This document shows, one piece after another, positions 20,297 to 23,651 of a stretch of DNA of 64,000 nucleotides. Position 1 is the first letter of the stretch; each line of letters opens with the position of its first letter. The notes under the pieces are model-generated. The model was not told where the DNA came from. It worked only from the letters and a program-made list of their open reading frames with translations, and did not search any database. The stretch is from Nodosilinea sp. FACHB-141 (GTDB lineage Bacteria > Cyanobacteriota > Cyanobacteriia > Phormidesmidales > Phormidesmidaceae): contig NZ_JACJPP010000007.1 in the NCBI RefSeq assembly GCF_014696135.1, positions 372,001-436,000 on the forward strand, in the 5' to 3' direction. The translations under genes and the position numbers were made by a program.

Positions 20297-20596
20297 TTAA
20301 TGACGTAGCTTTGGCGCAGGCCGACCGCTCTTTAAAGCGCCCGGCATCACCAGCTTTAGCGGAGCGAGATAATATTTTGGGGACGGCTGATGACTATATA
20401 TCGAGAATCTTCTGCTGCTGGTCAAGAAATACCTCAGGTCTTTGCCATAGCCTCGCTGCTCAATCAGCCTCTCTAGGTCTAATCCATAGGCAGCCAAAAA
20501 TAATTTCCCTAGCTGGTGGCTGCCTACCCAAGGTGAACCCGTGCGCTCTAACTCAGCCACAAAAAGATCGTCGATGGCCTCCAACACCTGATTCAT
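20297..20596 (-). CDS. Small protein with a LOTUS/OST-HTH-like winged helix
   Basis: 99 residues from the ATG at 20596 (111 from the ATG at 20632; neither has a clear ribosome-binding site). The central part reads SPWVGSHQLGKLFLAAYGLD, then LIEQRGYGKDLRYFLTSSRR, then FSIYSHQPSPKYYLAPL. This follows the LOTUS (OST-HTH) pattern: a W/G start, helix, GY-L repeat, then a beta wing ending in an F-x-I strand. LOTUS domains bind RNA or Vasa-type helicases. The assignment is by eye and needs a profile search. The gene is isolated in about 780 nt with no other convincing gene. Confidence 0.55.
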   Translation of the reverse strand: MNQVLEAIDDLFVAELERTGSPWVGSHQLGKLFLAAYGLDLERLIEQRGYGKDLRYFLTSSRRFSIYSHQPSPKYYLAPLKLVMPGALKSGRPAPKLRH

Positions 20597-20632
20597 GGAA
20601 GAAAACGTTGACAAACTTTGCTGAGATACCAT

Positions 20633-20944: not shown

Positions 20945-22249
20945 CTAGTCTTTGGCCCCAGCGCTAGTCTCACCAGGCTTGTCGAGAGTAGCTGAGGCTG
21001 AACCAGATTGTTGATCGAGGCGCAAGGCCTGGGCTAAGGCCGATCGCGCCTGGGCTTTTTGTACCAGCGGGTCGAGTTGCTCTACCGATAGCCCACTCAA
21101 CAGACTCAGTTCCTGGCGGTTCAGCCCCCTCAGCAGCATCTCAACACACCAGGTGGCACGGGCCTGCTCAACGCCAATTGGTTCGCCAGTAGGCGACATA
21201 ATGCCGGTTGTTACCTCGGCCCATAGCTGCCGCACTCTTAAGGGCGTAATCGGCTGATCGTCTGGCCCCAAAAACATGGCCGATGAAGCATCATTGCGGC
21301 TTTTGAGCCAGCGGGTGAGCGGGTTTTTGGTGTAGGTGCCGTAGCGCCGACCCATGATCCACTGATTGAGGGGCACCTGGCGATGCTGAGGGCCAACAAG
21401 CAAAATGTGCTGGCTGCTGTCGTAGAGGGCGCTAGCGCGGCTGAGCAGCGGCACCTCTGCTGCCGCTACCCCGGCCCCCAGCAGTACGTAGATCAAGGCA
21501 TGGGTCTGGTTGCCAGCCTTGCGGGCCGCTTGCATAATCTCATGGACTAATGGGGCGGGTAGGTCGCTCCAGCTCTCTGTGTTGGCGGGAGTAAGGCTAA
21601 GCTGGGCTGGGCTAATAGCGGCCACATCGGTCGGGGGGCGCAAGCTGAGCAGCCAACTGACGACACTATCGATAAAAGCGCTCCGGCTGGACCACAGACT
21701 GTGAAATTCTGCGCTGCCTTCACCGGCTCCACTGGTGGTGCCGTCGATCGCGGCATAGCCCAGCAGCAGCGCCATCACTAACCCTGCTACTTCCTCAGGG
21801 GGGAGGCCGACGGCTTCCCCTGGGGCCAGATGCGCCTCCAGGTACTCAGCAATGAAGTTGCGAATGGTTTGTAGGCCCCGCCCCATGGCCTGGCTATTGT
21901 CTGCAGAAAACTGTCCGGCTTCACCAACTACCGATCGCACCAGCTCGGAGAGCTGATCGAGGGTGGCCAAGCACTGGCCCAGAAACTCCCTCAAGGCCTG
22001 GTCGATGGGAGCTTGGGCTAGAGCTGCCAGATCAAAGCCGTGGTCTGGGCCAGACAACACCTCAGCCTCAGTCATGACCGCTGCAAGCAAGCTGTGCTTG
22101 CTACCAAACTGGCGGAACAGCGTGACCTCGTTAACCCCCGCCAAATCAGCCACCTGCCGAGTGGTAGTAGCGCTTACTCCCTGGCTAGAAAATAGCTGAA
22201 ATGCCGCATCTACTAGACGCTGTCGAGCTGATTTGCGCTGATCTGCCAT
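20945..22249 (-). CDS. TetR regulator fused to a degenerate tyrosine-recombinase-like domain
   Basis: 434 residues, about twice a normal TetR. Residues ~5-55 are a TetR helix-turn-helix (ARQRLVDAAFQLFSSQGVSA, GVNEVTLFRQFGSKHSLLA) followed by a regulator-type helical domain to about 205. Residues ~225-410 resemble a phage-integrase catalytic fold (IYVLLGAGVAAAEVPLLSRA, HRQVPLNQWI, PITPLRVRQLWAEV, ARATWCVEMLLRG). The usual Arg after GTGL is Ala, the H-x-x-R His is replaced by Glu, and no C-terminal Tyr nucleophile is seen, so recombination is not expected. It is divergent from a desaturase gene and probably regulates it. The integrase similarity is my own reading. Confidence 0.8.
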   Translation of the reverse strand: MADQRKSARQRLVDAAFQLFSSQGVSATTTRQVADLAGVNEVTLFRQFGSKHSLLAAVMTEAEVLSGPDHGFDLAALAQAPIDQALREFLGQCLATLDQLSELVRSVVGEAGQFSADNSQAMGRGLQTIRNFIAEYLEAHLAPGEAVGLPPEEVAGLVMALLLGYAAIDGTTSGAGEGSAEFHSLWSSRSAFIDSVVSWLLSLRPPTDVAAISPAQLSLTPANTESWSDLPAPLVHEIMQAARKAGNQTHALIYVLLGAGVAAAEVPLLSRASALYDSSQHILLVGPQHRQVPLNQWIMGRRYGTYTKNPLTRWLKSRNDASSAMFLGPDDQPITPLRVRQLWAEVTTGIMSPTGEPIGVEQARATWCVEMLLRGLNRQELSLLSGLSVEQLDPLVQKAQARSALAQALRLDQQSGSASATLDKPGETSAGAKD

Positions 22250-22260
22250 GGCAAAAAGAA

Positions 22261-22323
22261 AGCAACACTTGCATTTTACCAGAGAAGTTTGTTAGGATTA
22301 ATTTGCAAGCGACACTTGCAAAA
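22261..22323. promoter_or_regulatory. Predicted operator between TetR-fusion gene and desaturase
   Basis: A perfect inverted repeat TTTGCAAG (22302-22309) / CTTGCAAA (22315-22322) with a 5-nt spacer. A partial copy, GCAACACTTGCA at 22262-22273, repeats the right half in direct orientation (compare GCGACACTTGCA at 22309-22320). Placement in the divergent promoter region suggests the TetR fusion binds here to control both genes. Confidence 0.6.
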
Positions 22324-22432
22324 GACTCCAGCCGGTCCCTCAGGGGTGCAAAGGAGGCGGGCAAGGACTTCCCTTCGGTCGGACTAACAGACTGGTCGAG
22401 GGTTTAACCCTAAAAGAAGAAAAGGACGTGCT

Positions 22433-23290
22433 ATGACAACACTACTGAAACCAGCCCCAGAGAAACGGGAAATCAAAGGCCTAGATTGGACATTGGTCGG
22501 CTTTTTAACCGCCATTCACGGCGTTGCCCTGCTAGCCCCGTGGTTCTTTTCGTGGTCGGCCTTGGGGGTGATGGTGGCGCTGCACTGGCTGTTTGGCAGC
22601 ATCGGCATTTGTTTGGGCTATCACCGACTGCTCACCCACCGCAGCTTGCAGGTGCCCCAGTGGTTAGAGTACGTCATTGCCACCATTGGTGCGATGGCGC
22701 TTCAGGGGGGCCCGATCTTTTGGGTGGCAGGGCATCGTCAGCACCACCTCTACACCGAGGATGCTGAAAAGGATCCCTATGCCGCCAGTCGGGGGTTTTG
22801 GTGGAGCCACATGTTGTGGATGGTGTACCGCAATCCGGCAGTCTTTAATGGCCAGATTTACCGTCGCTATGCTCCAGATATTGCCCGTGACCCTTACTAC
22901 CGCTGGCTCGATCGCAACTTTCTACTGCTGCAAGTGCCGGTTGCGATCGCCCTCTTTGCCCTCGGCGGCTGGTCCTTTGTAATCTATGGTGGCTTTCTGC
23001 GAATTGCGTTGCTGTGGCACTCGACCTGGCTGATCAACTCGGCAACCCACATGTGGGGCAAGCGACGCTTTCATATTGAAGACAACTCGGGCAATCTGTG
23101 GTGGACAGCGCTGCTCACCTACGGCGAAGGCTGGCACAATAACCACCACGCGTTTCCTAACGTGGCCCCGGCTGGCTGGCGCTGGTGGGAAGTCGATGTC
23201 ACCTGGTACGCCATTCTGTTGCTAGAAAAACTGGGTTTGGCCCGACGGGTAGTGCGGCCTCCAGTGGAAGCTATGGCTCAAGCGCGGTGA
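22433..23290 (+). CDS. desC: Fatty acid desaturase, acyl-lipid delta-9 (DesC-like)
   Basis: 285 residues. The three histidine boxes that hold the di-iron centre are intact: HRLLTHRS (near 64), HRQHH (near 103) and HNNHH (near 237). Four membrane helices are visible (for example LVGFLTAIHGVALLAPWFF and WSALGVMVALHWLF). The family introduces the first double bond at C9 of lipid-bound acyl chains in membranes, using ferredoxin, and is usually cold-regulated. RBS-like AAAGGACG precedes the ATG. A divergent TetR-fusion regulator and an inverted repeat suggest local repression. The delta-9 assignment rests on overall similarity; other positions are not excluded. Confidence 0.88.
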   Translation: MTTLLKPAPEKREIKGLDWTLVGFLTAIHGVALLAPWFFSWSALGVMVALHWLFGSIGICLGYHRLLTHRSLQVPQWLEYVIATIGAMALQGGPIFWVAGHRQHHLYTEDAEKDPYAASRGFWWSHMLWMVYRNPAVFNGQIYRRYAPDIARDPYYRWLDRNFLLLQVPVAIALFALGGWSFVIYGGFLRIALLWHSTWLINSATHMWGKRRFHIEDNSGNLWWTALLTYGEGWHNNHHAFPNVAPAGWRWWEVDVTWYAILLLEKLGLARRVVRPPVEAMAQAR

Positions 23291-23345: not shown

Positions 23346-23651
23346 TTAGGGATTGCTCAGATTATCAGGGGGATGGAAGCGAGGGTGGAGGCGATCGCGC
23401 ACCAGTTCCCCCCTCCCCAAATGCTCTTCGACAATTCGCGGCACATCCCCAGGGGTGACCCGGCAGTACCAGGTATTGCCGGGCATCACTTTAACCGTAG
23501 GCCCAGCGCTACATTGGCCCATGCAGTCGCTCTCGGTCACTAAAATGTTGGGGCTCTGGTGCTGCTGAAATGCCGCTAGTACCGCCGCCGAACCGCCGCG
23601 ATCGCACGAGCGATGCCGACACACCTGCACTAGCCAACGCTTAGAAACCAC
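23346..23651 (-). CDS. Thioredoxin-like [2Fe-2S] ferredoxin domain protein
   Basis: 101 residues. The four cluster ligands are Cys11 and Cys16 (VCRHRSC) and Cys43 and Cys47 (SDCMGQCSAGPTV), the spacing of thioredoxin-like 2Fe-2S ferredoxins (NuoE/HoxE and CbiW-like). The segment TVKVMPGNTWYCRVTPGDVPRIVEEHL is the usual C-terminal strand-helix unit. It likely transfers single electrons in the cytoplasm. Whether it serves the nearby desaturase is not known: the genes are convergent and cyanobacterial desaturases normally use plant-type ferredoxin. Confidence 0.85.
   Translation of the reverse strand: MVSKRWLVQVCRHRSCDRGGSAAVLAAFQQHQSPNILVTESDCMGQCSAGPTVKVMPGNTWYCRVTPGDVPRIVEEHLGRGELVRDRLHPRFHPPDNLSNP

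Follow-up and report, generated by a model that had tools for sequence, protein, structure and literature searches.

A TetR-Family Regulator Fused to a Putatively Dead Tyrosine-Recombinase Domain beside a Desaturase Gene in Cyanobacteria

Recombinase folds without recombinase activity have already been described. MrpR (YopR), the master repressor of the SPbeta prophage of Bacillus subtilis, has a recombinase fold, has lost the recombinase function and acts as a DNA-binding repressor (PMC10516654, consulted part). It is a phage protein made of core-binding and catalytic domains, and no TetR part is mentioned in the consulted part of that article. TnsF of Tn6022, a Tn7-like target selector, carries an inactivated recombinase domain; in the consulted part of its description it serves to target a transposon and combines zinc fingers and core-binding domains with part of a catalytic domain (PMC10293859). 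Among TetR-family proteins, FabR regulates fatty-acid genes (PMC6123915, consulted part). Here a 64,000-nucleotide stretch of a cyanobacterial genome (the window) was analyzed, in which the gene for a TetR regulator with a recombinase-like tail stands divergent to a fatty-acid desaturase gene. The control of membrane desaturation in cyanobacteria, as in cold acclimation, is a classic problem, and DesT is also a TetR-family regulator of fatty-acid genes.

The tail of this fusion was similar in structure to MrpR (8a0a_A, Z 11.1) and to phi3T SroF (9rgl_A, Z 13.2), the latter known here by its entry title. It shares with them the recombinase fold and the lost catalytic residues; DNA binding by the tail is putative. 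Unlike MrpR, the fusion has no core-binding domain, stands behind a complete TetR regulator and is encoded beside a desaturase gene; unlike TnsF, it has almost the whole catalytic domain and a TetR head. The closest solved fold was that of XerA and XerC-like proteins (5hxy, Z 19.9; 4a8e, Z 17.8), and 4a8e was also the closest sequence, but the fusion differs from them in its broken active site, the absence of a core-binding domain and the TetR part. The TetR regulators of lipid genes (FabR, DesT, and FadR) share the TetR architecture, and Bacillus FadR was among the structural matches of the TetR half. We know of no recombinase tail in these three, and to our knowledge the operator described below, TGCAAGTnnnACTTGCA, is not theirs. 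No description of the TetR-recombinase fusion, its operator or its desaturase link was found in the open-licence full-text literature, which is weak as evidence of absence. The TetR half, the recombinase fold and the repurposing of dead recombinase folds are known; what appears to be new in the literature searched is the fusion itself, together with its spread, its conservation, the desaturase beside it and the operator. The initial annotation, made from the letters of the window, had called such a reuse unusual. This holds for the TetR-recombinase fusion, but a dead recombinase fold serving as a repressor had a precedent in MrpR (PMC10516654, consulted part).

Anatomy of the fusion protein

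The regulator and its parts lie in the window as follows.

20945-22249, minus strand: TetR / putatively dead tyrosine-recombinase fusion regulator, 434 aa (ORF translation and relatives of the fusion)
22070-22228, minus strand: TetR helix-turn-helix, residues 8-60 (PF00440, E 6.5e-14; median dN/dS 0.022)
21635-22069, minus strand: TetR dimerisation / ligand-type helical domain, residues 61-205 (structural matches, weak TetR_C_7)
21578-21634, minus strand: poorly conserved linker, residues 206-224 (pLDDT <50, low identity, high dN/dS)
21008-21577, minus strand: predicted Xer-type tyrosine-recombinase catalytic domain, putatively dead, residues 225-414 (fold, profiles, residue alignments)

The reading frame, confirmed at the position given in the initial annotation, starts with an ATG at 22249 and stops at 20945-20947. 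A TetR regulator had been proposed for the first half, and this was confirmed: TetR_N (PF00440) matched residues 12-58 with 51.9 bits against a cut-off of 24 (E 6.5e-14), all 77 aligned sequences matched it at E <=1 (best 1.2e-16), and the solved TetR structures QacR, EthR, KstR, and FadR aligned with residues 4-207 of the model at Z 14-16. Considering that the TetR core is complete and includes the ligand-type domain, the tail is an addition to it and not a replacement.

Searched alone against Pfam and NCBIfam, the window protein matched TetR models and no recombinase model; in Pfam, TetR_C_7 and YlxR also matched, both below their own cut-offs. Since Pfam alone gave no recombinase signal for this protein, relatives or structure were needed to detect one. 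The tail predicted alone by AlphaFold (213 residues) had a mean pLDDT of 87.2 and a pTM of 0.82. Its top Foldseek matches were XerA chains (5hxy_F, E 3.4e-7), followed by XerH, Tn1549 Int, and lambda Int, and all 39 matches at E <=0.001 were, by title, recombinases, integrases or their complexes. VIA-align aligned it with XerA 5hxy over 175 residues (Z 19.9, 3.3 Å, 14% identity) and with 4a8e over 149 residues (Z 17.8, 1.9 Å, 23% identity), and ranked XerA first, then XerH, integron integrase, Cre, and lambda Int. At the sequence level, the archaeal XerC-like 4a8e was found by a profile of 18 tails (E 1.8e-7) and by one of 77 tails (E 7.5e-6). Phage_integrase (PF00589) matched 10 of the 18 tails at E <=10 (best 5.8e-9) and 69 of the 77 full-length relatives at E <=1 (best 8.9e-11). 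The proposed resemblance of the second half to a tyrosine recombinase was thus borne out by fold, structural search and profile alike, and structure prediction, set beforehand as the refuting check, returned a recombinase fold and not an unrelated one. By predicted fold and by sequence, the tail is an Xer-type tyrosine-recombinase catalytic domain. Two other matches of the 77-tail profile, RecC (E 0.13; 0.11 with the 18-tail profile) and a toxin chain (E 0.41), were taken as chance.

The full-length AlphaFold model, built from the window protein and 76 relatives, had a mean pLDDT of 80.7 and a whole-chain pTM of 0.50. The pLDDT was 85-97 in ten-residue blocks over residues 231-410 and below 50 at residues 206-225, and the modelled placement of the TetR half relative to the tail is uncertain. 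The model has no core-binding (SAM-like) domain, and only a low-confidence linker of about 20 residues stands between the TetR core and the catalytic-like domain. At the C-terminal end there is a single long helix, which covers residues 389-420 in the full-length model and residues 168-197 (389-418 of the protein) in that of the tail. The mean net charge was about +2.5 for the tail and about -7 for the TetR half.

Active site and conservation of the tail

The catalytic columns were mapped by profile alignment to 4a8e, not by superposed coordinates, and those of Lys and His/Trp are the least certain. At the six positions, the window protein has Ala262 (Arg-I), Pro287 (Lys), Glu361 (His), Arg364 (Arg-II), Leu387 (His/Trp), and Leu395 (Tyr), so that only Arg364 is retained. 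The profile alignments therefore agree with the initial annotation that the first Arg is Ala and that the His of HxxR is Glu. Its third point, the missing Tyr nucleophile, applied to the window and to its genus, where all 19 loci, including the window's own, have Leu in the Tyr column, but not to the wider alignment, in which 75 of the 77 rows have Tyr and the window row is one of the two exceptions. Across these 77 sequences, one catalytic residue was retained in 44 rows, two in 27 and three in 6; the first alignment, of 31 rows (the window and some loci repeated), likewise had no row with more than three of the six. Ser occupied the Arg-I column in 73 of the 77 rows and Gln the Arg-II column in 70, while the His/Trp column held Cys in 39 and Trp in 32. 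Arg290, Arg318, and Asp412 of the tail were invariant. The description of the domain as dead stood up, with no aligned row above three of six catalytic residues while the domain itself is conserved, and the alignments support a catalytically dead tail. In MrpR, the retained Tyr matters for DNA binding (PMC10516654, consulted part), which may be a parallel for the Tyr retained in the wider tail family.

One relative (L029:1474-2727) has Arg at both Arg positions and has also retained the Tyr, while its three remaining catalytic positions differ; its tail looks as if caught at an earlier stage of decay.

Selection was estimated by the Nei-Gojobori method from 18 sequences of the window's genus (153 pairs). 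The median dN/dS was 0.022 for the helix-turn-helix, 0.172 for the TetR C-domain and 0.110 for the tail, and reached 0.618 in the linker (residues 205-224; 105 usable pairs) and 0.517 in the last 20 residues (118 usable pairs). Mean pairwise identity over the 77 sequences followed the same domains: 0.80 for the helix-turn-helix, 0.66 for the C-domain, 0.22 for the linker and 0.67 for the tail. Judged by these substitutions, the tail is under purifying selection and not decaying.

Distribution, desaturase neighbour and candidate operators

A search for other TetR proteins with this tail, which the initial annotation had proposed, showed that the fusion recurs, with 143 distinct tailed loci in cyanobacteria. 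Among 57 genomes (the window's and its relatives), 53 had some match and 36 a match reaching the tail, two of these being in pieces and one partial. A pattern scan of the genomes of 84,980 species gave 282 tail relatives, of which 80 were retained, all with cyanobacterial titles. The least biased sample was a set of 291 genomes drawn across the phylum. A strong tail match was found in 31 of them, always in an open frame longer than 400 aa, and the tail profile revealed no separate strong tail gene in the 291. Outside the class, this profile also gave five weak matches (E 1.7e-7 to 2e-4), which lie in open frames of 294-337 aa and are putatively ordinary recombinases. With the TetR-half profile, 33 of the 291 genomes stood out (E <=1.1e-63; next match 3.8e-37), namely the 31 tailed ones and two tail-less ones, G037 and G056. 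In the family of G037 (f5), seven of eight genomes had a relative, all tail-less in open frames of 225-272 aa. In that of G056, 19 of 26 genomes matched, 16 of them in frames longer than 400 aa, and the short frames were those of G056 (248 aa), G342 (237 aa), and G349 (281 aa); at the locus of G342 (L211), a member of the same genus as G056, the contig ends 74 bases past the TetR match without a stop codon, so its tail is undecided. Altogether 152 distinct loci were surveyed (143 tailed, 8 tail-less and L211), a ratio that is not a frequency because many loci were found through the tail.

A tree of moderate support nested the tail-less row of G056 within the tailed ones (94/88, not starred) and placed that of G037, also tail-less, basally, next to an outgroup branch of great length (96/51); its bootstrap had not converged. 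Loss of the tail on the way to G056 is likely from this placement. The tree is compatible with, but does not prove, a tail acquired by an early cyanobacterium and lost later towards G056. Since tail-less relatives exist, the tail is apparently dispensable in some lineages. A single relative of 528 aa (L133:3934-5520) has a long low-complexity insert in its tail and one operator site only.

The desaturase gene and the elements between the two genes are listed below.

22433-23290, plus strand: divergent fatty-acid desaturase, DesC1/DesC2-like, 285 aa (PF00487, E 5.3e-20)
22257-22273, no strand: candidate operator O1, AGAAAGCAACACTTGCA, 7 bp upstream of the regulator ATG
22304-22320, no strand: candidate operator O2, TGCAAGCGACACTTGCA, 47 bp from O1
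22290-22298, plus strand: extended -10-like element for the desaturase, TGTTAGGAT, found by eye between O1 and O2
22273-22281, minus strand: extended -10-like element for the regulator gene, TGGTAAAAT, found by eye, abutting O1

The third His motif of the desaturase is HSTWLINSATH, which conforms to the DesC1/DesC2 type described in PMC4390868 (consulted part). The enzyme is probably a Delta9 acyl-lipid desaturase, and the sn position that it serves is likewise presumptive. Besides it, the window genome encodes two desaturase relatives (52% and 36% identical). The window desaturase had a match in 109 of the first 110 loci, the exception being L032, whose contig begins inside the regulator gene. 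In the full survey it was divergent in 141 of the 143 tailed loci, in all eight tail-less loci and in the undecided one; the exceptions among the tailed loci were L032 and L096, which has a broken reading frame.

The region between the regulator and the desaturase contains two copies of a palindrome with the consensus TGCAAGTnnnACTTGCA. In the window, the left half of O1 is degenerate (3 mismatches), a trait common to its genus. A promoter scan of 22200-22440 found no sigma-70 consensus promoter; a conserved TTGcTAg..T block underlies the desaturase -10-like element. At least two operator sites (<=3 mismatches) were found in 140 of the 143 tailed loci, the others being L032 and L096, whose intergenic stretch was unreadable, and L133 with its one site. 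The first two sites were 46-48 bp apart in 128 of these 140 loci, and intergenic length ranged from about 120 to more than 500 bp. The strict pattern TGYAAGYnnnRCTTGCA occurred at 16 distinct positions in ten genomes, 13 of them at the desaturase locus, against 0 for the reversed control. The loose pattern behaved differently: at <=2 mismatches, the window genome had 7 places versus 8 for the reversed control, with O2 the best, and at <=3 mismatches the 64-kb window had 12 versus a shuffle mean of 13.9. By these counts, the strict operator is nearly a one-locus site and the loose pattern is uninformative. The three strict sites away from the desaturase locus (G167:C1:5761793, G209:C3:1334700, and G323:C1:1391682) are possible extra targets or chance. 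A third palindrome, AGCAAGCTGTGCTTGCT, lies at 22086-22102 inside the helix-turn-helix coding region of the regulator, with 2 mismatches to the degenerate operator pattern; palindrome matches of this kind (<=3 mismatches) occur at chance level.

Both the desaturase and the operator motif are also present at the tail-less loci. In f5, six of the seven loci had one good site and one had two sites 49 bp apart, while G056 retained both operators 47 bp apart without a tail. Since the operator also stands beside tail-less relatives, the TetR half is the likely DNA reader. That the tail brought the second operator was considered from the counts (two sites in 140 of 143 tailed versus 2 of 8 tail-less loci) and is not claimed, because the six one-site tail-less loci are all from f5 and G056 has two sites without a tail, so that the comparison comes down to one or two evolutionary events and is no test.

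Proposed regulation of the desaturase

The domain anatomy, the broken active site, the purifying selection, the constant desaturase neighbour and the conserved operators were established by computation. We hypothesized that the fusion represses the adjacent desaturase gene as its dedicated regulator, controls its own gene as well and uses the dead Xer fold as an accessory module, and we regard this reading as likely. It is highly probable that the fusion regulates the desaturase locally; that it represses the gene is a good deal more probable than the reverse; and whether the tail contributes DNA or dimer-dimer contacts is an even call. The TetR half would bind as dimers at the two TGCAAGTnnnACTTGCA palindromes, taken here as its putative sites, which flank the face-to-face promoter elements. 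The bound dimers would shut off both the desaturase and the regulator's own gene, and the repressor would come off when the TetR core receives a ligand or a membrane-lipid signal. The Xer fold, with DNA cleavage lost, would be retained most likely for an extra DNA contact and/or for contact between the operator-bound dimers. The distance between the operators might, however, be dictated by the promoter alone. The initial annotation had suggested an enzyme fold recycled as a regulator or ligand-sensing module. The constant desaturase neighbour and the operators support a regulator well, but ligand sensing by the tail found no support, since a complete TetR ligand-type domain precedes it. If so, the fusion would be a candidate dedicated desaturase regulator with a precise operator in many cyanobacterial families. 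In the open-licence literature searched, the fusion is also a so far undescribed case in which a regulator gained a recombinase catalytic domain by fusion, and comparison with the tail-less relatives, a natural experiment, could show what a TetR repressor gains from a dead enzyme domain.

The role of the tail may be read in several other ways. One is a frozen synapse, in which the dead Xer domain would keep a pair of DNA-bound partners joined, the structural task of recombinase catalytic domains, and so lock the TetR dimers at O1 with those at O2 in a single complex that covers both promoters; this is doubtful. If true, a recombinase would have been domesticated early in cyanobacterial evolution, making a membrane-lipid switch cooperative. 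In Xer dimers, the C-terminal helix docks into the neighbour. It is possible, if somewhat unlikely, that the tail is a protein-interaction or oligomerisation module that joins two TetR dimers, or recruits another protein, without DNA contact, the Xer fold being retained for a docking of this kind. The single long C-terminal helix with its invariant Asp412 would suit such a module, operator choice seems independent of the tail, given tail-less relatives with the same operator, and the partial catalytic domain of TnsF binds its partner TniQ (PMC10293859, consulted part). On the other hand, the weakly basic tail and the invariant Arg290 and Arg318 would suit DNA contact, and MrpR binds DNA with this fold (PMC10516654, consulted part). 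A merely passive fusion relic, held by folding constraint while a plain TetR repressor does all the work, would account for tail-less relatives with the same locus and operator. It is quite improbable, as the tail, with a median dN/dS of 0.11 within the genus, lower than that of the TetR C-domain, and a mean pairwise identity of 67% across 77 sequences, similar to that domain, is too conserved for a relic. We give hardly any credence to the idea that the tail still recombines or nicks DNA, always or under some conditions, and so rearranges the promoter: the Tyr in 75 of 77 rows, the Trp at the His/Trp position in 32 and the two Arg plus Tyr of L029 would favour it, but no row of the 77, or of the first 31, has more than three of the six catalytic residues and the window protein has one, Ser replaces Arg-I in 73 and Gln replaces Arg-II in 70 of the 77 rows, and the desaturase stays divergent in 141 of the 143 tailed loci.

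The sign of the regulation was weighed as well. In divergent pairs of regulator and target, the bound complex can act as an activator, and O1 is placed upstream of the -10-like element of the desaturase; both points would suit a fusion that activates the gene (for example in cold) or plays a dual role. However, O2 lies just downstream of the same element, where a bound protein would block, and TetR proteins are mostly repressors, which makes an activator unlikely; we infer repression as the preferred reading.

Further features were seen around the two genes. In the desaturase leader (22321-22432), a GACTCC ... GGAGTC-like inverted repeat occurs in same-genus relatives and is imperfect in the window, as seen by eye. 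Downstream of the regulator, an ORF of 111 aa (20297-20632, minus strand) matched nothing in Pfam or NCBIfam at E 0.001 but has a homologue in several loci of the same genus (L002, L003, L004, L007, and L014). The desaturase is followed, both in the window and at a number of loci of the same genus, by a gene for a 2Fe-2S thioredoxin-like ferredoxin (23346-23651, minus strand), a possible candidate for an electron-transfer partner.
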